Shown one piece after another: positions 1-8,007 of a stretch of 25,198 nucleotides of DNA; position 1 is the stretch's first letter; the number at the start of each line of letters is the position of its first letter. The stretch covers positions 1-25,198 of the IMG/VR virus record IMGVR_UViG_3300024348_002021; one strand, 5' to 3'. This stretch comes from a virus. Below the pieces are notes generated by a model. The model had not been told where the DNA came from, did not search any database, and saw only the letters and a list, made by a program, of their open reading frames with translations. The position numbers and the translations under genes are program-made.

Positions 1-1
1 T

Positions 2-550
2 CTTGGTCTAAATGTTGAAAAGGGCATCCGTAGTGGTGGTGGTATTACAGTTGTTTCAAATATGACGGCAAGAAATGCAATGACTCCTCTTACTGGTGAC
101 CAAGCACACGTACTAGACACAGGCGAAGGCGAATGGGCATTGTATCTATATTCAGGTTCTTCTTGGACATTGATTGCTAACGAAGACAGTGCGGCAACAG
201 ATGCCAACTCATTATCACACACATTTACTACTCCAGTTGGTGGATTTGGTAACACATCAACTGTTACTCTTGGTAGAATTAGTAGTAACTCACGAGTATT
301 GAGTGTTCTTGTCGAATGTACAACTGTATTATCAGGACATTCTGGTGGTACACCATCATTAATAGTTGGCGTTCAATCAGACACAGATAGATTTATGGCT
401 GATTATGAAAATGATATTGAAACTACGGGTTCATATGTAACTAATCCAGATTATCATTATGCGGGCGCAACTGAACTAGAAATTAAGTGTGCATTAGCAC
501 ATTATGGTGCAACTACTGGCGATATCAAAGTCACAGTAACATACGTTTAA
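2..550 (+). CDS. Phage virion structural protein, probably tail fibre C-terminal part (5' partial)
   Basis: The reading frame is open from base 2 with no stop before 550, so the gene begins upstream of the window; the ATG at 62 is an internal methionine, because in-frame codons before it encode a Gly/Ser-rich stretch that continues smoothly. The segment around the internal Met (ARNAMTPLTGDQAHVLDTG, then EWALYLYSG) resembles a module common in tail fibres and other virion proteins of T4-like marine phages, where a short beta-structured unit with D-T-G and W-x-L-Y is placed near the carboxy end. The rest is Ser/Thr/Gly-rich and beta-prone, without charged clusters, membrane helices or catalytic motifs. 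A structural role in the virion (fibre or baseplate-associated) is inference from this composition. The following gene lies 104 bases downstream behind a late-type promoter box. Confidence 0.6.
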   Translation, partial: LGLNVEKGIRSGGGITVVSNMTARNAMTPLTGDQAHVLDTGEGEWALYLYSGSSWTLIANEDSAATDANSLSHTFTTPVGGFGNTSTVTLGRISSNSRVLSVLVECTTVLSGHSGGTPSLIVGVQSDTDRFMADYENDIETTGSYVTNPDYHYAGATELEIKCALAHYGATTGDIKVTVTYV

Positions 551-615
551 CACAAATCCCTAACATCTTTCTCGATTTTAATCAAGTGTGAATTTGTATA
601 TTCACGTTTTCAAAA

Positions 616-623
616 GATAAATA
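616..623 (+). promoter_or_regulatory. T4-type late promoter box GATAAATA
   Basis: GATAAATA lies in a 104-base intergenic gap, 31 bases before the ATG at 655. The T4 late promoter consensus is TATAAATA, and cyanophage relatives use NATAAATA. The same octamer recurs in two other long gaps (3459-3466 and 8053-8060), which supports a real element. Confidence 0.55.
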
Positions 624-654
624 CATATAGAAATGATTAACAATAGAGAAAACT

Positions 655-942
655 ATGGCAAATAACAGAGAAACAACAGGTATTAGATTCTGGTTAGATA
701 AAGCACCAGAGTATTTTAGTCGTTGGAGAATATTCCCAAGAGTATTCATTTCGATGTATATCTTTTTATTGTATGATGTAGTACAATGGTTTATGTTATT
801 ACCAGACCCAAACTCACAACAAGCAGGATTAGTATCAGTTCTAGTAGGTTCAGGCGCGGCATGGTTTGGTCTTTACGTGAATAGTGTACCATCTTCAGTT
901 AAACTAGACGCAACCAATGTTCCACCTTCGCAGAGAAAATAA
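655..942 (+). CDS. Small two-helix membrane protein, phage type
   Basis: A 95-residue protein. A conserved-looking amino-terminal part (RFWLDKAPEYFSRWRIFPR) precedes a hydrophobic helix at about residues 30-48 and a second Gly/Ala-rich helix at about 57-75; the carboxy tail is polar. Similar small proteins containing a W-L-D-K-A-P-x-Y segment and a G-x-G-A-A-W-F-G-L-Y segment occur in T4-like marine phages, usually without assigned function. Two helices and small size are compatible with a holin or another inner-membrane protein, but I see nothing that decides this. The ATG is preceded by AGAGAA and a late-type GATAAATA box, suggesting late expression. The stop codon overlaps the next ATG by one base (TAATG), so the two genes are probably cotranslated. 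Confidence 0.7.
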   Translation: MANNRETTGIRFWLDKAPEYFSRWRIFPRVFISMYIFLLYDVVQWFMLLPDPNSQQAGLVSVLVGSGAAWFGLYVNSVPSSVKLDATNVPPSQRK

Positions 943-1412
943 TGAATAAAAGCAACTTCAAATATCATATTAGATTAAAAATGACTGAAGAGTTGGCTAA
1001 GACTGATATCAGTGGTATCATTAATGTTCTCAAAAAGGCAATTGCAAACATATTTCAGCCATTAGAAGACGGAACAGCAGTAATATATCATATGGGTGAT
1101 GATGCAATGTATCAACACATATACGATTTTAGATTAAATCGGAGTGTAACTGAGGCAGAAGCAGAAGTGATATTAGAACTTCTTACAGAATGGACGGATG
1201 ATGATTTTATTATGGAAATCACAACTAGTGAAAACTATGATATACCAGGTGATGACACCGAAATTGACCTTTCTGCTATGAAACATAACAGATGGATAGA
1301 TGAAAAACTAAGCGAAGGCTGGAGATATGGACTTGAATTCAGTGAAGAAAGCAAGACCGACCCTAGATTACAACCTTATCATCAATTGACAAATAAGTTA
1401 AAAAATATCTGA
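942..1412 (+). CDS. RyR-domain-containing protein
   Basis: A 156-residue acidic protein. The last 42 residues (about 115-156) fit the RyR domain pattern (PF02026): W118, then G-W-R-Y-G at 126-130, K138, P141, P145-Y146 and a terminal hydrophobic-Lys stretch. The first 110 residues have no motif I recognise. RyR domains occur in ryanodine receptors and, in prokaryotes, in proteins linked to nucleotide-dependent conflict systems, where they have been proposed to bind NAD-derived or other nucleotide ligands. Whether this copy binds a ligand is unknown. The gene is translationally coupled to the upstream membrane protein. A stand-alone phage RyR protein could act as a ligand sink or as a virion or regulatory protein; both ideas are inference. 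Confidence 0.65.
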   Translation: MNKSNFKYHIRLKMTEELAKTDISGIINVLKKAIANIFQPLEDGTAVIYHMGDDAMYQHIYDFRLNRSVTEAEAEVILELLTEWTDDDFIMEITTSENYDIPGDDTEIDLSAMKHNRWIDEKLSEGWRYGLEFSEESKTDPRLQPYHQLTNKLKNI

Positions 1413-1420
1413 CAAAACAC

Positions 1421-1449
1421 TTGACTTATTAGTTAAAACGATGTATTAT
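1421..1449 (+). promoter_or_regulatory. Sigma70-type promoter of the Fe-S gene pair
   Basis: TTGACT (1421-1426) and TATTAT (1444-1449) are separated by 17 bases, just after the stop codon at 1412 and 22 bases before the ATG at 1472. It is weaker than the other sigma70-like promoters in the window, but the spacing is ideal. Confidence 0.6.
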
Positions 1450-1471
1450 ATAACAATAGATAGGTAAAAAT

Positions 1472-2014
1472 ATGTCAGGAACAAAACGATTATATAATTT
1501 AGAAGAAAAGAATTACTTCAAATTCTTTGGTGTGGAGGAGAAGCAAGGAACTAGTATTCGAAGCCTTTCTACGCATTATAAAAAGATTCTTAATATATTA
1601 AAAGACGATAACTCATTTATCGGTAGAGACCATAAAGAATTCGCTCACAGAGCCTTCAATACGTTAGTAGACCCTATATTACGAGCAAGATATATCTTAG
1701 AAACTAATGGGCACGAATGGGACTTTCGTGATGGTACTACACCAGAAGATTTAAGTTTTATTTCTGAATTACGAATACAACTTTCCAAAGCAAATTTACA
1801 GTTTGAACTTGAGAATTTCGTTTTTGAGTTAAAAGGACATACCACATTTATTATAGAACAAATTGAAGAAAGTATCGATACTTATCAGAATTATAAAACA
1901 GCAATTGGCTTAATTAATAGATTTTACGAGATATCTCATTTACACGAAGAGGCAATAAGTAAAAAATATGAAGTTGAACAAGGAATTCATCACGGCGTGT
2001 TTGACCAAAACTAG
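1472..2014 (+). CDS. HscB-like J-domain co-chaperone lacking the HPD motif
   Basis: A 180-residue protein with the overall plan of HscB: a J-like amino-terminal domain (YFKFFGV at 15-21, L-S-x-x-Y at 32-36, then A-F-N-T-L-x-D-P-x-x-R-A-x-Y at 61-74) and a helical carboxy domain beginning with a segment like the HscB D-x-x-F-L/I-x-E-L-R-x-x-L motif (DLSFISELR at 92-100). HscB delivers the scaffold IscU to the Hsp70 HscA for Fe-S cluster transfer. When aligned by eye to E. coli HscB, the catalytic His-Pro-Asp lies opposite Lys44-Asp45-Asp46. The protein should therefore not stimulate Hsp70 ATPase in the usual way, but it could still bind IscU. It is followed 17 bases later by an A-type carrier gene in the same unit, supporting an Fe-S role. 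A generic degenerate J-protein is the alternative. Confidence 0.7.
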   Translation: MSGTKRLYNLEEKNYFKFFGVEEKQGTSIRSLSTHYKKILNILKDDNSFIGRDHKEFAHRAFNTLVDPILRARYILETNGHEWDFRDGTTPEDLSFISELRIQLSKANLQFELENFVFELKGHTTFIIEQIEESIDTYQNYKTAIGLINRFYEISHLHEEAISKKYEVEQGIHHGVFDQN

Positions 2015-2031
2015 AATTAGAGGGGAATAGT

Positions 2032-2352
2032 ATGATTTTTACAGAAAACGCGGCAGAGCGTGTAAAAGAAATCATTGTTGAAGACAAAGAAGACGTTAAA
2101 GCACTTAGAGTATTTGTTCAAGGTGGCGGATGTCACGGATTTAGTTATGGTTTTGGTTTTGAGAATGATATCGCAGATGATGATACCATTATTGAAACAA
2201 ATGATGTAAAATTAGTAGTAGATAGTATGAGTATAATGTATCTAAATGAAGCAACAATTGATTTTGTTAGCAATCTTCAAGGAGACCGTTTCACAATCGA
2301 TAACCCAAGCACAAGAACATCTTGTGGCTGTGGTTCGAGTTTTTCAATGTAA
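2032..2352 (+). CDS. A-type Fe-S carrier protein, ErpA/IscA family
   Basis: A 106-residue protein of the HesB/IscA family, closest by eye to ErpA. The family's three cluster-binding cysteines are present: Cys34 in GGGCHGF, and Cys98 and Cys100 in the TSCGCGSSFSM carboxy terminus. The stretch F-x-F-E-N-D and the segment VVDSMSIMYL also fit ErpA. Such proteins receive Fe-S clusters from the scaffold and pass them to apo-enzymes in the cytoplasm. The length and all key residues are intact, so the protein should be functional. It follows the HscB-like gene by 17 bases with an AGAGGGGA ribosome site, implying a two-gene Fe-S unit from the promoter at 1421. The likely use is maturation of host or phage Fe-S enzymes during infection; the specific client cannot be read from this window. 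Confidence 0.9.
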   Translation: MIFTENAAERVKEIIVEDKEDVKALRVFVQGGGCHGFSYGFGFENDIADDDTIIETNDVKLVVDSMSIMYLNEATIDFVSNLQGDRFTIDNPSTRTSCGCGSSFSM

Positions 2353-2407
2353 ATATCAATATCTTACGTTATTTTTAGCAAAATAGAGAAAATAATCAGA
2401 TAATCAC

Positions 2408-2437
2408 TTGACATCGGGTCAGATGTCGTGTTATAAT
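2408..2437 (+). promoter_or_regulatory. Strong extended -10 sigma70 promoter of the outer-membrane-protein gene
   Basis: TTGACA (2408-2413), an 18-base spacer and TATAAT (2432-2437), with TGT just before the -10, making TGTTATAAT an extended -10. The spacer contains GGTCAG, which recurs in the promoter at 20159. The predicted start near 2444 falls at the foot of a stem-loop. Confidence 0.8.
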
Positions 2438-2445
2438 TAAACATA

Positions 2446-2487
2446 TAATCAAGTTATAATGTACTATGTACATTGTATGCTTGGTTA
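2446..2487 (+). promoter_or_regulatory. 5'-end stem-loop in the leader of the barrel protein gene
   Basis: An imperfect hairpin: outer arms 2446-2453 and 2480-2487 pair over 8 bases with one G-U. The inner arms AATGTAC (2458-2464) and GTACATT (2468-2474) are a perfect 7-base palindrome around TAT, with a short asymmetric internal loop between. It begins within a few bases of the predicted transcription start, like the stabilising 5' hairpin of ompA mRNA. The inner palindrome could instead be a protein operator. Confidence 0.5.
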
Positions 2488-2527
2488 TTATTAAGGCTTA
2501 ATATTTTTAACTTTTAAAAGGAGAACT

Positions 2528-3385
2528 ATGAATAAATTATTAAGAACCGCTATTGTGGGGACTGCATTGCTAACAGTCCCATACATCGCATTCGCGGATG
2601 AAACGGCAACAGAAACGACAACAGAAACGACAAACAGTGTTTCTGTTACTGGCACATATGAAGGTACGGCTTCTGTAGATTCAACTACAAAAGATTTAAC
2701 GTACACTCAAGGTCTAGACCTTGTTATGGTTGGAACTTCTCCACATGGTAGTGTTACAGTAAACATCGATGAAACTGCTACTGTTGGTGATTTATATCTA
2801 GATACTAATCTCTTTAATTTTGATGTACGCCTTGGTAAGGTTGACAGCGTAACAGGAATTAAAGTAAGTACATCTATTGCAGGTTTCACAGTATCAGTGC
2901 ATAAAGCAACTGGTAGTGGTGGAGCAACTACAGTAGATGCAAGTACAGTATTTGGACCACTTACTGTTTCTGGCGAAGACATCTTAGATGATAGTCGTCT
3001 ATTAAGTGCGGGAATGGGAATTGCTGGTATTGACTTAAATGGTTCATATCAAAACACAACAACAGGAACAAATACTATTGTTGACGCTGGTTTAGGAATA
3101 CAAGGTATCTCAGTCGATGTTGCTCACGCTTCAATCGGTGATGCTAGTGTTACTAAAACTGGAACAAGCAAACATGCGTTGTTAGGTACTATGACTAGTG
3201 CTACAAATGGCACAAGTGTTAAAGGTGTAAAGGCATCTATGGGTGACCTTTCTGCTAAACTTGTAAATTTAAATAGCAACAACACTTATACGTTATCATT
3301 AGAACGTGGAATCATGACTTACTCATATGAGAAAGTTTCTGGTGGCGCTTCTACGGTTTCAGCAGGTGTAAAAGTTACGTTTTAG
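2528..3385 (+). CDS. Secreted outer-membrane beta-barrel (porin-like) protein
   Basis: A 285-residue protein with a classical signal peptide: Met-Asn-Lys-Leu-Leu-Arg, a hydrophobic core to about residue 20, and a probable cut after AFA at residue 23. The mature part is rich in Thr, Ser, Gly and Val, has alternating hydrophobic residues typical of beta strands, no cysteine, and ends in V-K-V-T-F; a terminal Phe is the usual signal for insertion by the BAM machinery. A barrel of roughly 12-16 strands is plausible from the length. The gene is a self-contained unit with a strong promoter, a leader hairpin, an AAAAGGAGA ribosome site and a strong terminator. It could be a small porin improving nutrient uptake by the infected cell, or a protein that masks receptors against superinfection. 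The family is uncertain; export and a barrel fold are the better-supported parts. Confidence 0.7.
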   Translation: MNKLLRTAIVGTALLTVPYIAFADETATETTTETTNSVSVTGTYEGTASVDSTTKDLTYTQGLDLVMVGTSPHGSVTVNIDETATVGDLYLDTNLFNFDVRLGKVDSVTGIKVSTSIAGFTVSVHKATGSGGATTVDASTVFGPLTVSGEDILDDSRLLSAGMGIAGIDLNGSYQNTTTGTNTIVDAGLGIQGISVDVAHASIGDASVTKTGTSKHALLGTMTSATNGTSVKGVKASMGDLSAKLVNLNSNNTYTLSLERGIMTYSYEKVSGGASTVSAGVKVTF

Positions 3386-3403
3386 ATTTTATCTCATAAC
3401 TTG

Positions 3404-3432
3404 AAAAAGCCCGTCAATGACGGGCTTTTTTT
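3404..3432 (+). terminator. Rho-independent terminator
   Basis: GCCCGTC and GACGGGC (3409-3415, 3419-3425) pair around AAT; the stem is extended by AAAAA/TTTTT and followed by seven T. It isolates the barrel-protein gene from the envelope operon that follows. Confidence 0.93.
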
Positions 3433-3458
3433 GTTAATAATTTTATTGAGCAAAATGT

Positions 3459-3466
3459 GATAAATA
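3459..3466 (+). promoter_or_regulatory. T4-type late promoter box GATAAATA
   Basis: GATAAATA lies 42 bases before the ATG at 3509, directly after the strong terminator at 3404-3432. It is therefore the only visible promoter candidate for the envelope operon 3509-6568. Confidence 0.55.
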
Positions 3467-3508
3467 GATTATGAATGATATCATAATACAAAGTGGGAGA
3501 GTAACACT

Positions 3509-3949
3509 ATGACAAAAACATTTCTACAATGGTGGTTATTTTTTGTGCTACAATTAATAATCTTAGGGGCTTCATACATATACGAATTACATTTGTATAT
3601 TCTTAACAACGACCAAACTTATATTTCTTTTATACTAATAGGTATTTGGTTACTTACAAGTATGCGAATTGGATATAAATTAGTAAAAAATATATCAACA
3701 TCAAACGAAAAATTCTGGTTTATTGCTGAAACTTGTATGGCAATAGGTATGATGGGAACTGTTTTAGGTTTCATTCTCATGCTCGGAAGCAGTGACTTAG
3801 GAAGTATAGATCCATCAGATGTAGAAGGTATGAAAAACGTAATAGGACATCTGGCGAAAGGAATGGCAACTGCTCTATTAACTACTCTTACCGGTCTAAT
3901 AGTATCCGTTTCTTTAAGAACTCAATTAATGATTGGAGAGGGTGAGTAA
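3509..3949 (+). CDS. MotA/TolQ/ExbB-like proton channel protein
   Basis: A 146-residue protein with four predicted membrane helices (about 7-27, 40-58, 74-93, 118-135). The last two carry the MotA/TolQ/ExbB signature: GMMGTVLGFI at 80-89 and GMATALLTTLTGLIVS at 118-133, matching the G-x-x-G-T-V-x-G and A-L-x-T-T-x-x-G-L patterns. Family members form a pentameric inner-membrane channel that couples the proton gradient to work in the periplasm through an ExbD/TolR/MotB partner. It is shorter than ExbB (about 240 residues) and lacks the large cytoplasmic loop. The next gene starts immediately after its stop codon and has the expected partner architecture. It is the first gene of a five-gene operon behind a late-type box. 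The family call is fairly secure; the cellular task is unknown. Confidence 0.78.
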   Translation: MTKTFLQWWLFFVLQLIILGASYIYELHLYILNNDQTYISFILIGIWLLTSMRIGYKLVKNISTSNEKFWFIAETCMAIGMMGTVLGFILMLGSSDLGSIDPSDVEGMKNVIGHLAKGMATALLTTLTGLIVSVSLRTQLMIGEGE

Positions 3950-4708
3950 ATGTCTGTAAATCGATACGGTTCAAACCTGTCGTTCAATGATGTATTGTTC
4001 AATGCACTATTAGGGTTTGTAGTATTATTCGTATTAGCACTTCTGTTAATCAATCCAATAACAAAAAAATCTGATATTCCAGCGAAAGCAGAGATAATGA
4101 TTATCGTAGAATGGGACGATGAATCTCCTGACGATATAGATACGTGGGTAAAAGGTCCCCTTATGGGCGCACCAATTAGTTTTCAAAATAAACATAGTGG
4201 AATGATGCACTTAGACAGAGATGACTTAGGTAGAACATCAGATACTATGATTATTGATGGCAAAAAAATAGTTATAAAAGTAAATCGTGAAGTTGTAACT
4301 ATGCGTGGTATAGTAAAAGGTGATTACTACATCAATATACACGTATATAACAAACCAAAGGGAAGTGAACCGACTAAATATACAGTGACACTGATGGATG
4401 TTAATCCATATAAAGAAGTTTACGTTATACAAGGTGAAGTTACGAGTCGTGGCGATATTGTTCGACTTCCTGGTTTCACATTAGATGAAGAAGGTGAAGT
4501 AACGGATATATGGACAAGTGATAAAATAATAGTAGGCACAAGAGACCAAGCATCAGTCATTGATGGTGCTGGTGGTTATCAAGCCTATGATGAAGCAATA
4601 CGTACCTCAGCAGAGGCCGCACTGGCCCAAGACGATGATATGCATAGTTCAATGGATGATGCTGAAGCAGATGCGGCAGTACGCCTAGCGACTGGTGATG
4701 AAGAATAA
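3950..4708 (+). CDS. ExbD/TolR-like anchor with periplasmic YfaP/DUF2135-like domain
   Basis: A 252-residue protein with one membrane helix at about 16-36. Its start (SFNDVLFNALLGFVVLF) recalls the ExbD/TolR/MotB helix, in which a conserved Asp before V-L carries protons; here that residue is Asp14. The periplasmic part begins near residue 40 and contains D62-I-D64-T-W66-V-K-G-P, followed by H-L-D-R-D-D-L-G, a pattern like the DxDxW-V-x-x-P-x-G beta-sandwich domains (YfaP/DUF2135 type). The last 50 residues are acidic and Ala-rich. Position and topology pair it with the upstream channel gene, to which it is directly abutted. The combination of an ExbD-type helix with this domain, rather than the usual TolR/ExbD fold, is unusual. 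It suggests force or signal transmission to an unknown periplasmic partner. The domain name is moderately certain. Confidence 0.62.
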   Translation: MSVNRYGSNLSFNDVLFNALLGFVVLFVLALLLINPITKKSDIPAKAEIMIIVEWDDESPDDIDTWVKGPLMGAPISFQNKHSGMMHLDRDDLGRTSDTMIIDGKKIVIKVNREVVTMRGIVKGDYYINIHVYNKPKGSEPTKYTVTLMDVNPYKEVYVIQGEVTSRGDIVRLPGFTLDEEGEVTDIWTSDKIIVGTRDQASVIDGAGGYQAYDEAIRTSAEAALAQDDDMHSSMDDAEADAAVRLATGDEE

Positions 4709-4727
4709 ATTAATAACGGAGAAGTAA

Positions 4728-5417
4728 ATGCTTATAAATGGTGTGACAATTGATATGATGATTCAATTTTATATAGTTGGATTATTCACTCTTATATTAG
4801 TATGCTTGTACGCATTGATACAAAGTAAAGCGAATAAACTTTATACTTTTACGATAATACCATTAGCATTGATTATAGCAAGTATGACTTGGCAAGGTAT
4901 CAAAATGTTACAAGGTATGCCAGTATATGGATTACCAATGCAACAACAGGTTCAAGTAATGTTTGTACACGATAGTAAACCTTGGATATATGTATTATTG
5001 AATTCAGAGAATGGTCCAAAATTTTATAAAATAGATTGGACAGAAGAAAATAAAAAGAAAATGAAAGACTTACAGAAGAAAATAGGTTCAAGTGATGGTG
5101 ATGGAGAATTTAAAGAAGGTAATCCAGGAGAATCAGATTCATTCTTCTTTACTCCAATGATGAATATGGGAGAGTTTCAAGGAAAAGAACCAGAAGAATC
5201 GAGAAATTCAGGAGTAACATTTGAAAATAATGTTATAACTGGAAGCGGACCAGGCAATACAACAAATCCAGATAGACCTAGTTTGGAACACGAACATGAA
5301 TCTGAAGAAGACGGAATTATAAGAGGCGATAGTATCACTATCCCATGGTCTACCCTATTTTCAGTTCCAGAACATAAAGAAACATTTATTGGTCCATTAA
5401 ATGAGGGAGAAGAATAA
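4728..5417 (+). CDS. Unknown envelope protein with two membrane helices
   Basis: A 229-residue protein not recognised as any family. Two hydrophobic helices lie at about residues 8-28 and 37-55, so the carboxy 170 residues should be on the same side as the amino end. That soluble part begins with a short hydrophobic, beta-prone stretch (VQVMFVHDSKPWIYVLL), then a lysine-rich helix near 100-117, and continues as a Gly/Glu/Ser-rich, probably disordered region with F-F-F-T-P, ending in an acidic tail. A GGAGAAG ribosome site precedes the ATG. The stop overlaps the next start by one base (TAATG). Membership of the ExbB/ExbD-like operon suggests it is a third membrane component of the same assembly; that is inference. 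Confidence 0.6.
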   Translation: MLINGVTIDMMIQFYIVGLFTLILVCLYALIQSKANKLYTFTIIPLALIIASMTWQGIKMLQGMPVYGLPMQQQVQVMFVHDSKPWIYVLLNSENGPKFYKIDWTEENKKKMKDLQKKIGSSDGDGEFKEGNPGESDSFFFTPMMNMGEFQGKEPEESRNSGVTFENNVITGSGPGNTTNPDRPSLEHEHESEEDGIIRGDSITIPWSTLFSVPEHKETFIGPLNEGEE

Positions 5418-5710
5418 TGTTATCAGAAAGTGTAGGAGCAGTTTTAATGATAGGACATTTTATTGTGTCAATTTTTAATGTACAACTTGGTGCACCAGTT
5501 ATCTATACAATGCCATTTGAAACTATGGAGCAATGTCAATTCTATGGCGAACAATTGCCAAAAGACATGCAGATAGATATTGAGTGGAAGCATAGTACAA
5601 GATATCAATGTTACACACTTGCACAATTTCAAGAAATGCAACGACAACAGATTGCGGCACAACAAGGTACTGCACCTGAACCACAAGATTCAGAGGAACC
5701 AGGAGTATAA
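5417..5710 (+). CDS. Unknown small exported or anchored protein with a Cys pair
   Basis: A 97-residue protein. A hydrophobic stretch at about residues 6-28 could be an uncleaved anchor or signal peptide; the rest includes Cys39 and Cys65, which could form a disulphide if it lies in the periplasm, and a Gln/Pro/Glu-rich tail. The segment F-E-T-M-E-Q-C-Q-F-Y-G between the hydrophobic start and the second cysteine resembles small phage proteins of the type with a single disulphide-bonded helix pair, but no family can be named. It is translationally coupled to the upstream gene (TAATG) and only six bases from the protease-like gene that follows, so it is part of the same five-gene operon. Confidence 0.58.
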   Translation: MLSESVGAVLMIGHFIVSIFNVQLGAPVIYTMPFETMEQCQFYGEQLPKDMQIDIEWKHSTRYQCYTLAQFQEMQRQQIAAQQGTAPEPQDSEEPGV

Positions 5711-5716
5711 TATCTA

Positions 5717-6568
5717 ATGAAAAAAATATTCAGTTTTATAAAAGAATTATTACTAATAAGATTATTAATTAAACTTATAAAAAATCCTATGTTATTAGTG
5801 ATAGTTGTTTTGCTTGTTTTTCTAAGTAAAGACCAAGCAGTCGAATGGTATGATGAATACATGGTACTATATGAAGAAGCAAATAACAAAATAGAAGAAG
5901 ACGAAAACTCTGGAGGATTAACTTTTACGAAGATTGACGAAAACTTATATACCTTAACAGGTACAGTAAAAGAAGGTGATTGTGAAAAAATCGCACCCCA
6001 AATGCCAGATGCATTTGCTTTAATTTTAGAGAGCCCTGGTGGAAATCTAGCAGAAGGATCATGTCTTGCGGCTCATATAAAACTTCGTAGCGTAGTTACA
6101 GTCGTTAGGTCTGATGAGGTAATGAATGAATTTGGTGAAATTGTTTACATTCCCGGCTCATATATGGACGAGGAAGATACCGCCGATTATATGAAAGATA
6201 AGGCAATATGTGCATCAGCATGTGGATTAATGTTCTTAGGTGGTGATAAACGATATTTAATAGGAGATGTATACTTTGGAATACATGGACCTGGCACTCC
6301 ACCAGGTAGTATGAATGGCGCAAGTCCAGGGGCTATTGAGTCTTCAGCGTTTAGAAGTGCATCGTCATTAATGAAATTACTTAAATCTCTAGGAGTTGCA
6401 GACGAAGATTTAAGATTATTATTCATTCAAATTCCAAACGCATCGATGTATTGGCTACATCCTAGAGACTTCGAAATAAAACCAGCATTGACATCAATTG
6501 CTACTAATTATGTAAATTTCTTTGGTTTCACAGGAAGCGATTTAGAAGGTGGTATTCGCCAAAGATAA
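5717..6568 (+). CDS. Membrane-anchored ClpP/SppA-fold protease-like protein (COG3904 type)
   Basis: A 283-residue protein with a basic amino end, one membrane helix at about 24-40, and a soluble domain that should face the periplasm. The domain has the hallmarks of the ClpP/crotonase fold as seen in predicted periplasmic COG3904 proteins: E105-S-P-G-G109 with E-G-S-x-L-A-A-H-I following, the probable nucleophile Ser167 in C-A-S-A-C-G-L-M-F-L-G-G (165-176), and His190 in G-I-H-G-P. In ClpP/SppA-like enzymes the Ser lies after the oxyanion glycines and works with His or Lys. Cys165 and Cys169 flank the serine, as in family members. It is the last gene of the operon with the ExbB/ExbD-like pair, suggesting a protease that processes or is activated by that machine. 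Proteolytic activity is inferred, not shown. Confidence 0.72.
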   Translation: MKKIFSFIKELLLIRLLIKLIKNPMLLVIVVLLVFLSKDQAVEWYDEYMVLYEEANNKIEEDENSGGLTFTKIDENLYTLTGTVKEGDCEKIAPQMPDAFALILESPGGNLAEGSCLAAHIKLRSVVTVVRSDEVMNEFGEIVYIPGSYMDEEDTADYMKDKAICASACGLMFLGGDKRYLIGDVYFGIHGPGTPPGSMNGASPGAIESSAFRSASSLMKLLKSLGVADEDLRLLFIQIPNASMYWLHPRDFEIKPALTSIATNYVNFFGFTGSDLEGGIRQR

Positions 6569-6590
6569 TTTTACAATATGTTCTGATTTA

Positions 6591-6598
6591 ACTAAATA
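6591..6598 (+). promoter_or_regulatory. Weak late-promoter-like box ACTAAATA
   Basis: CTAAATA with flanking A, 54 bases before the ATG at 6653, differs from the GATAAATA boxes at two positions. TATAAATT at 6625-6632 is an alternative in the same gap. Either could drive the SbmA-like gene, but neither is convincing. Confidence 0.25.
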
Positions 6599-6602
6599 CA
6601 TA

Positions 6603-6627
6603 ATATACGAAGATTAAAGTCGTATAT
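6603..6627 (+). repeat. Perfect 8-base inverted repeat upstream of the SbmA-like gene
   Basis: ATATACGA (6603-6610) and TCGTATAT (6620-6627) are exact reverse complements with a 9-base spacer. There is no T-run after it, so it is not a typical terminator; an operator or leader hairpin is possible. Confidence 0.45.
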
Positions 6628-6652
6628 AAATTTATTAAATTAGAGGTGAAAT

Positions 6653-7687
6653 ATGTTAAAATCATTTTTTCTCACAAAAGAATATGGTGTATATGCGTGG
6701 CTAATGCTTTCCTTTCTACTAGGAATAATTTGGTACAACGTAGAAATACTAGTATTCTACAACAGTTGGAACAAAGAAATATATGATGTAATTCAATCAC
6801 TACAAGAAGATAGATTCTGGGAGTTATTTCTGGGATGGGACGCTGGTAGATTTTTGAATTTCATGGCTTTAACTGAGGGAGTTCAACCCTCATTCTTAGA
6901 GATTATTGTACTTTATATTCCCATAGCAGTATATTCCACATGGCAAACCCAACGATATTGTTTTAAATGGCGAGAAGCCAATACTAAACACTATATGTCT
7001 AGGTGGGAACACTCACCAGCAAAAATTGAAGGTGGCTCACAGCGTATACAAGAAGACTTAATGATATTTGGTAAGACTCTGCAAGGTTTATTTACTGGAT
7101 TCTTTAGTGCGATACTTATATTATTTGCGTTTCTTCCTATCTTGTGGAATTTATCAGAGAGTTTACCCGTCTGGAATGGTCAAATTATTCCTGGATTCTT
7201 AGTATGGGTTGCTTTAACTGTATCAATTGGTGGTACTTTAATATCACTTATACTGGGTTGGAAACTACCTAAACTTGAATATAATAATCAGGTAGTAGAA
7301 GCAAAAATGAGAAAACAATTAGTATTCTCTGAAGATGATTTTAATGCAAGAGCAACAGCAGTCTTATTTCCTATGTTCTATTCTGTACGTAGAAACTACT
7401 ATAGACTATTCAACTGGTATATGGGATTTGGTGTATGGCAAACAGCATTTGGATTATGTGTAGGTAACTTAGCACTAGTTGTTCTAGCACCAGCATACTT
7501 CGACCAATTAATCACACTTGGAGTATTATTCCAAGTACTCAACGCATTCGGACGAGTAGAAAGTTCAATGGGCTACTTTATAGACCGTTGGACAACGATT
7601 GTTGATTTCTTATCAGTCATTAGACGTATTCGAGAATTCAATAAGGCACTCGATGATGCTAAAGATGTAACATTTGATAATCCATAA
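6653..7687 (+). CDS. SbmA/BacA-family peptide transporter
   Basis: A 344-residue multi-helix membrane protein that aligns by eye over most of its length with E. coli SbmA (406 residues). The start (M-L-K-S-F-F) and the segments W-R-E-A-N-T-K-H-Y-M-x-x-W, I-E-G-G-S-Q-R-I-Q-E-D, K-L-P-x-L-E-Y-x-N-Q-x-V-E-A, S-E-D-D and S-V-R-R-N-Y-Y-R-L-F all match family-conserved stretches, as does I-T-L-G-V-L-F-Q-V-x-N-A-F-G-x-V near the end. SbmA/BacA proteins are homodimeric inner-membrane importers driven by the proton gradient that take up antimicrobial peptides, bleomycin-type drugs and short peptides. There is no ATP-binding domain, as expected. It is shorter at the amino end, lacking part of the first helical region. 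An AGAGGTGA ribosome site fixes the ATG. It follows the envelope operon by 84 bases and may or may not be cotranscribed. Confidence 0.9.
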   Translation: MLKSFFLTKEYGVYAWLMLSFLLGIIWYNVEILVFYNSWNKEIYDVIQSLQEDRFWELFLGWDAGRFLNFMALTEGVQPSFLEIIVLYIPIAVYSTWQTQRYCFKWREANTKHYMSRWEHSPAKIEGGSQRIQEDLMIFGKTLQGLFTGFFSAILILFAFLPILWNLSESLPVWNGQIIPGFLVWVALTVSIGGTLISLILGWKLPKLEYNNQVVEAKMRKQLVFSEDDFNARATAVLFPMFYSVRRNYYRLFNWYMGFGVWQTAFGLCVGNLALVVLAPAYFDQLITLGVLFQVLNAFGRVESSMGYFIDRWTTIVDFLSVIRRIREFNKALDDAKDVTFDNP

Positions 7688-7726
7688 AATACATTAAATA
7701 TACAGTTTTCCTCTGTCTCTTTCCTC

Positions 7727-7733
7727 TTAAATA
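7727..7733 (+). promoter_or_regulatory. Possible late-type box TTAAATA
   Basis: TTAAATA lies 33 bases before the ATG at 7767, in the same position relative to a start as the GATAAATA boxes at 616 and 8053. It lacks the full consensus. Confidence 0.25.
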
Positions 7734-7766
7734 ATAGTAGAGAGAAAGATTTAGAGGAGAACTAGT

Positions 7767-7985
7767 ATGAAATTCTTATATGTAGATGTTGACCACCGAA
7801 AAGTGGTTGGAATATTTAAAAACACTAATGAAGAAATAATAAAACTTAATATGAAAGAGTTGCAAATACTATCACAGAAAGAACGATATGTACTTAATTC
7901 GAAGATATTACCCGAAATAGATGAGGCTCTTTATGCTGTAGGTCAGTATACTAAGGGGCATAGTCCCTGGTGGAAGTTTTGGTAA
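7767..7985 (+). CDS. Small protein of unknown function
   Basis: A 72-residue soluble protein not assigned to a family. It starts with a beta-like segment (MKFLYVDVDHRKVVGIF), followed by a polar helix-prone middle, and ends in an aromatic cluster S-P-W-W-K-F-W that could be a membrane-interface or protein-binding tail. A strong ribosome site, AGAGGAGA, seven bases before the ATG supports translation. A terminator starts 22 bases after the stop, making it the last gene of the unit. There is no signal peptide. Confidence 0.55.
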   Translation: MKFLYVDVDHRKVVGIFKNTNEEIIKLNMKELQILSQKERYVLNSKILPEIDEALYAVGQYTKGHSPWWKFW

Positions 7986-8007
7986 AAATTTCAATCTATT
8001 ATTAATT

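Follow-up and report, generated by a model that had tools for sequence, protein, structure and literature searches.

A predicted outer-membrane porin encoded by a tailed phage forms part of a viral lineage related to chromosomal porins of the Thioglobus/SUP05 family

The gene described here, carried on a fragment of a large tailed-phage genome, appears to encode a viral porin of the outer membrane that belongs with the chromosomal porins of Thioglobus/SUP05-type bacteria in one family. The fragment, the whole 25,198-nucleotide (25-kb) stretch of DNA analyzed here and called the window below, encodes a DNA polymerase closest to those of Sinorhizobium phage Phosso and Agrobacterium phage Atu_ph07 (47%); the porin-like gene (positions 2528 to 3385, + strand) specifies 285 residues that begin with a Sec signal peptide and end in phenylalanine. 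Virus-encoded porins are already known singly. The porin described here belongs to a separate viral lineage that is traceable to a host family and that has selectively lost surface loops. Such a lineage would make outer-membrane permeability something that marine phages take over, and through it a probable host group can be proposed for the phage of the window.

RESULTS AND DISCUSSION

A single-gene expression unit

The barrel gene is monocistronic, with its own promoter, ribosome site, and intrinsic terminator (Table 1), and both the unit and the gene order around it are kept in six related contigs (60 to 82% identity). The initial annotation had proposed an autonomous unit with a near-perfect extended -10 promoter, an upstream stem-loop, a strong ribosome site, and a strong terminator, expressed early and highly apart from its neighbors, and most of this was borne out. 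The promoter parts (TTGACA at 2408 to 2413, an 18-nt spacer, and TG-T-TATAAT at 2429 to 2437) make up the sole fully consensus site within positions 1 to 8000 of the window, and the ribosome site and terminator are as strong as had been claimed. The consensus promoter, 5' hairpin, and strong ribosome site that were found are features expected of a highly expressed gene and suggest an abundant product. Separation from the neighbors was also upheld, as the next operon has just GATAAATA upstream (3459) and other phages with that operon lack the barrel.

TABLE 1 Positions of features in and next to the barrel gene unit
Feature	Position	Strand	Evidence or remark
Sigma70-type promoter: TTGACA, 18-nt spacer, extended -10 TGTTATAAT	2408..2437	+	12/12 consensus matches; same place in 6 relatives
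Palindrome GACATC-GGGTCA-GATGTC in promoter spacer	2410..2427	.	Seen in sequence; not in relatives (ATAAATA there)
5'-terminal mRNA hairpin, about 1 nt past predicted start (2444)	2445..2488	+	MFE -18.7 kcal/mol; z -4.05 for whole leader; covariation
Shine-Dalgarno AAGGAG, 4 nt 5' of ATG	2518..2523	+	Sequence; relatives keep GGAGAA
Sec signal peptide, residues 1 to 23, AFA/DE cut	2528..2596	+	By eye; all homologues begin with a signal peptide-like segment
Mature porin-like barrel (predicted)	2597..3385	+	AlphaFold2 pLDDT 84.3, pTM 0.69; Foldseek; VIA-align; dN/dS
Predicted surface loop L7 (GDASVTKTGTSKHALLGTMTSATNG), only long loop	3137..3211	+	Unusually conserved
Intrinsic terminator AAAAAGCCCGTCAATGACGGGCTTTTTTT	3404..3432	+	z -6.55; kept in relatives
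GATAAATA, T4-late-type -10 candidate for next operon, outside the barrel unit	3459..3466	+	Sequence

Two of the earlier claims stand in part. The promoter is indeed the unit's own, but it is not unusual for the phage, since similar promoters recur across the phage: the window has two copies of TTGACA-N16-18-TATAAT (at 2408 and 20159), where 0.08 would be expected, and host-type promoters also lie upstream of the genes at 1472 and 17094 and of those for a sliding clamp (20219) and an SAM synthetase (21831). Each of the six related contigs has 4 to 14 exact TTGAC..TATAAT pairs, most of them in the coding orientation, whereas a reversed control gave 0 to 1. The stem-loop is real, but it is not upstream, since it lies just 3' of the predicted start (about 2444) and inside the transcript.

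This hairpin begins about 1 to 15 nt from the predicted start in seven loci, across which 81.5% of cells pair, five pairs are changed on both sides, and none of 500 shuffles was as good. The first 50 nt at the barrel gene fold at -18.7, -18.9, and -19.3 kcal/mol. Because the corresponding 50 nt at the other sigma70-type sites in the window, G001, and G005 fold only at 0 to -9.2 kcal/mol, the hairpin belongs to the barrel mRNA; a comparable one was absent from every other sigma70-type promoter examined in these three. The ompA 5' untranslated region has an mRNA stabilizer, a stem-loop that occupies its extreme 5' terminus (Emory and Belasco; Chen et al., as summarized in PMC7509114). Like it, so far as that summary describes it, the barrel leader pairs a stem-loop within a few nucleotides of the 5' end, here a predicted one, with a strong ribosome site on an mRNA for an outer-membrane protein. 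The two sequences are unrelated as far as known, and by analogy the barrel hairpin probably slows decay of its mRNA.

The barrel promoter looks dependent on host RNA polymerase, and a promoter of this type suggests that expression starts early. Early timing is plausible rather than established because relatives carry a late-type ATAAATA in the same promoter. ATAAATA is the core of T4-type late promoters, in which a TATAAATA-like -10 is read by a late sigma factor. It lies inside the same promoter spacer in all six close relatives and is absent there in the window. Four divergent homologues have NATAAATA 51 to 83 nt 5' of the start codon, with no sigma70 match upstream. It is possible that in the relatives the barrel is expressed in both early and late phases. 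The palindrome in the window's spacer could be an operator or could have arisen by chance; as a conserved operator it was ruled out, being missing from the relatives.

An 18-strand barrel with the marks of a porin

The signal peptide and C-terminal phenylalanine from which outer-membrane insertion had first been proposed both held up: the signal, assigned by eye, reads MNKLLRTAIVGTALLTVPYIAFA with cleavage before DE, and the phenylalanine is invariant in 18 of 18 homologues. The AlphaFold2 model was computed from an 18-sequence alignment; five close sequences gave a pLDDT of 28, and adding the divergent homologues yielded the confident model of Table 1. The strand number, which the initial annotation had proposed to obtain by structure prediction, came out as 18 (first strand at 2636), with eight 2-residue periplasmic turns, short surface loops, and one long loop; a non-barrel fold did not come out. 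The best Foldseek matches are porins (best E value, 1.2e-6). VIA-align gave Z scores of up to 18.9 across all 250 residues, with Campylobacter MOMP at the top, and of 18 to Occ/OprD and ChiP over 240 to 250 residues, which bears out the proposed outer-membrane barrel. Against the solved porins as a set (Campylobacter MOMP, OprD/Occ, ChiP, AlgE, and LamB), the barrel aligns full-length at Z scores of 15.5 to 18.9, whereas these proteins share 8 to 16% identity with it and have chains of 350 to 470 residues and long loops, and we do not claim membership among them. Ratios of dN/dS of 0.14 to 0.32 overall, and of 0.16 to 0.28 for the window's gene against its relatives, indicate that the gene is under purifying selection.

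Gram-negative porins, which form a water-filled channel and are often trimers, are marked by a Sec signal, an even number of strands, tight periplasmic turns, and a C-terminal aromatic residue, and the barrel has all of these. The constriction loop L3, typical of general porins though not universal, is reduced to 2 residues in the window's clade against about 15 in other phages and hosts; on the model, L7 might serve as the constriction loop in its place.

Curated families gave no porin match for the barrel (Pfam, NCBIfam, and PHROGs), nor did a search of G001, G005, and G007 with Pfam Porin_4 (PF13609), and the barrel had no match by tblastn against phage records or by sequence search of the PDB. 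A Pfam OTU1_UBXL match (E value, 0.007, under the cut-off) was spurious. The host porins tested, described below, were likewise without a match in curated models. Annotation pipelines miss the viral and host porins because neither, as tested, matches a curated family.

Homologues in phages and in the Thioglobus/SUP05 family

A wider search recovered eleven divergent phage homologues, about 29 to 35% identical to the barrel, and the viral porin lineage comprises at least 17 phage contigs beyond the window. The phage neighbors of the divergent barrels include genes for RNR, PhoH, ThyX, DsrC, and TusA, and relatives of the barrel are carried by phages that encode DsrC, TusA, or cytochrome c. One divergent homologue adjoins TusA and DsrC; this DsrC shares 95% identity with its counterpart in a gammaproteobacterial metagenome-assembled genome, and its best named matches are mostly from Thioglobus, Ruthturnera, and Bathymodiolus symbionts.

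These neighborhoods bear on a rival view of the product, in which it is no porin but a protein of the virion or tail or an outer-membrane factor that acts at lysis. In the window's clade the gene does lie 3' of a probable tail protein gene, but elsewhere it sits beside RNR, PhoH, ThyX, DsrC, and TusA, and it has its own promoter and terminator. Tail-protein identity is unlikely because the model is a confident 18-strand porin barrel, and with the homology to chromosomal porins added we regard this whole alternative as very improbable.

Small secreted proteins are encoded near several divergent barrels. One is a cytochrome c (L128, 3089 to 3415; PF00034, E value, 2.9e-7); others, at L012 4525 to 4857, L127 896 to 1258, L145 2531 to 2809, L142 5160 to 5465, and L124 6049 to 6300, had no Pfam match. 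The secreted protein of L142 has homologues in 48 of 83 host-family genomes, often in tandem.

The host family searched was that of the genome holding the Thioglobus pontius record (83 genomes), and the barrel profile covered the mature part only. Chromosomal homologues were found in 21 of the 83 Thioglobus/SUP05 family genomes (E values down to 7e-28). A pattern scan of genomes had returned no host homologue, a failure of sensitivity, and the whole-genome profile search then found them. In samples of 369 genomes of the class and 398 of the phylum, matches came solely from genomes already found within the family; among sampled genomes the homologous chromosomal porins are confined to it. In the controls, real proteins scored 20 to 108 bits and the best of 1,428 shuffled or reversed sequences scored 9.2. 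The window's clade alone matched the short host porins with 98% probability (E value, 2.7e-13; 234 columns) and the long ones weakly (43%), and all phages together matched the long ones with 96.8% probability (E value, 2.6e-10). Homology to the Thioglobus/SUP05 porins thus extends beyond the signal peptide.

In the host genomes the locus runs from the puuD/mutM side through the porin, in up to three tandem copies, to ygfZ and nhaD (gene names by eye). The host genes are ordinary cellular porins, judging by this conserved chromosomal place beside ygfZ and nhaD, and the phage copies sit instead in phage gene neighborhoods. In the tree the phage proteins form one clade (support, 100/99), and the window's clade lies across a long branch (1.09 changes per site); by gene neighborhood and tree, the phage porins are a viral branch and not the host gene itself. 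Both groups share homologous sequence, Sec export, the C-terminal phenylalanine, and the same inferred strands, but the phage proteins have 244 to 273 mature residues and short surface loops, whereas the chromosomal porins average 323.

Judged by the porin, the window's phage likely infects a Thioglobus/SUP05-type family, and so probably sulfur-oxidizing marine bacteria. We infer this host rather than assert it because the branch is long and because the available parts of the contigs of the window's clade contain no DsrC or TusA.

Loss of surface loops and possible roles in infection

For the loop comparison, host and phage proteins were mapped on one predicted model through an alignment of about 30% identity, with the outer face assigned by the rule commonly applied to barrels of this kind. 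The strands add up to 171 residues in the window's clade, other phages, and hosts alike; surface loops total about 58, 75, and 128 residues and turns 16, 21, and 24 residues, respectively. From the host mean to the window's clade, L1 shrinks from 9 to 3 residues, L2 from 21 to 5, L3 from 15 to 2, L8 from 24 to 2, and L9 from 9 to 4. On this model the barrel would be full-size and its surface loops reduced to under half of those of host porins. L7 is the exception, as its length is retained and its identity exceeds that of the strands both in the clade (0.88 versus 0.72) and in other phages (0.63 versus 0.46). In porins the strands are usually better conserved than the surface loops, the opposite of what is seen for L7.

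We give roughly an even chance to the reading that a virus-optimized porin maintains a permeable outer membrane while infection proceeds, whatever the reason for its compaction. A single-gene mRNA would be made from a promoter that host RNA polymerase can read, its very 5' end protected in the manner of ompA, and the product, exported by Sec/BAM, would supplement porin or substitute for it at a time when the host's own synthesis is shut down. The membrane would then stay permeable to substrates while the compact form shows little surface. Since the barrel is kept and most loops are removed, the infected cell could keep a pore open yet offer other viruses hardly any hold. Economy, perhaps plain genome economy, may explain the trimmed loops, or the compact form may avoid displaying receptor loops. 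A wide pore might be toxic to the cell.

More doubtful is a rival reading, in which the host porin is the phage receptor and a flood of the loop-less form blocks superinfection and stops progeny from binding debris. The concentration of loss on surface loops (L1, L2, L3, L8, and L9) and the strong promoter readable by the host would fit it. The receptor role of the host porin is, however, an assumption, and conservation is highest in a surface loop, L7, which points to a positive function. The late-type promoters found upstream of several homologues are harder to reconcile with exclusion, although they would be compatible with release. The corresponding origin, a "stealth porin" in which one widely shared viral lineage arose from the host's receptor porin by surface-loop deletion, keeping the pore and removing the handle of other phages, is for us similarly tentative.

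The conservation of L7 would also fit a porin tuned, through L7 and the pore lining, for sulfur species or another limiting substrate, and the neighbors of the divergent homologues (TusA, DsrC, cytochrome c, and the secreted protein found in 48 of 83 host-family genomes) point the same way. The window's clade, however, is without DsrC and TusA, and the model reveals no substrate. We consider this substrate-specific role unlikely, and equally improbable that the porin forms one program with DsrC, TusA, cytochrome c, and the small secreted protein. The initial annotation had offered nutrient uptake or receptor masking as candidate roles, a choice that becomes directly addressable by expression of the protein.

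Among other phage-encoded porins, Lc from phage PA-2 and NmpC, which a defective prophage encodes, have been reported to alter receptor display. They differ from the window's porin in belonging to temperate phages, in being near-copies of host OmpC-type porins, and in having untrimmed loops. Predicted viral porins are also contained in BFVD. An OmpL porin gene, reportedly acquired from Bacteroidetes, lies beside glnK-amtB in oxygen-minimum-zone phages assigned to Bacteroidetes hosts (PMC8115048); like the window it is a case of a virus-encoded porin gene in marine phages, but neither the reported Bacteroidetes origin nor glnK-amtB was seen for the window's porin, which is set apart from OmpL by description. 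In superinfection exclusion by T5, the small periplasmic lipoprotein Llp jams FhuA (PMC9586334). There, as proposed for replacement of a receptor porin, a phage product alters outer-membrane receptor display and receptor loops decide, but Llp is a periplasmic lipoprotein and not a porin (PMC9586334). The main text of the eLife SUP05-virus and sulfur-phage papers makes no mention of a porin, and a literature search, outside which most subscription papers lay, returned no report of this viral porin lineage.

Neighboring genes

The operon adjoining the barrel (3509 to 7687) encodes a MotA/TolQ/ExbB-like protein (PF01618; E value, 7e-8), an ExbD/TolR-like protein in which an LDRDD motif is conserved, a pair of small proteins (that of the third gene being membrane-like), a ClpP-like protein identified by eye, and an SbmA/BacA-like transporter (E value, 2.5e-76). 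Viral contigs contain at least 199 relatives of its second gene, and the set of its first three genes is found again in Rhizobium phages (Pootjesviridae). The operon may encode a stator carried by the phage or an envelope machine driven by ions. An energized transporter formed by the barrel and the ExbB/ExbD-like operon was ruled out, as 34 phage contigs bearing the cassette (several of them fragments) lack the barrel and the divergent barrels have no cassette nearby. There are four GATAAATA sites in the window, all on the + strand; this count is not above chance, and an enriched late motif was accordingly rejected.

On the other side of the barrel, the stretch from 1472 to 2352 encodes a protein that by eye, without Pfam support, resembles the co-chaperone HscB, next to an IscA-type Fe-S protein (PF01521; E value, 1.1e-18); the two are possibly an Fe-S assembly pair of the phage. 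In the relatives L001 (5538 to 5819) and L004 (5534 to 5806), an acyl carrier protein gene, absent in the window, lies between the IscA-like gene and the barrel. Farther upstream, at 942 to 1412, the window encodes an RyR-domain protein (PF02026; E value, 2.6e-9).
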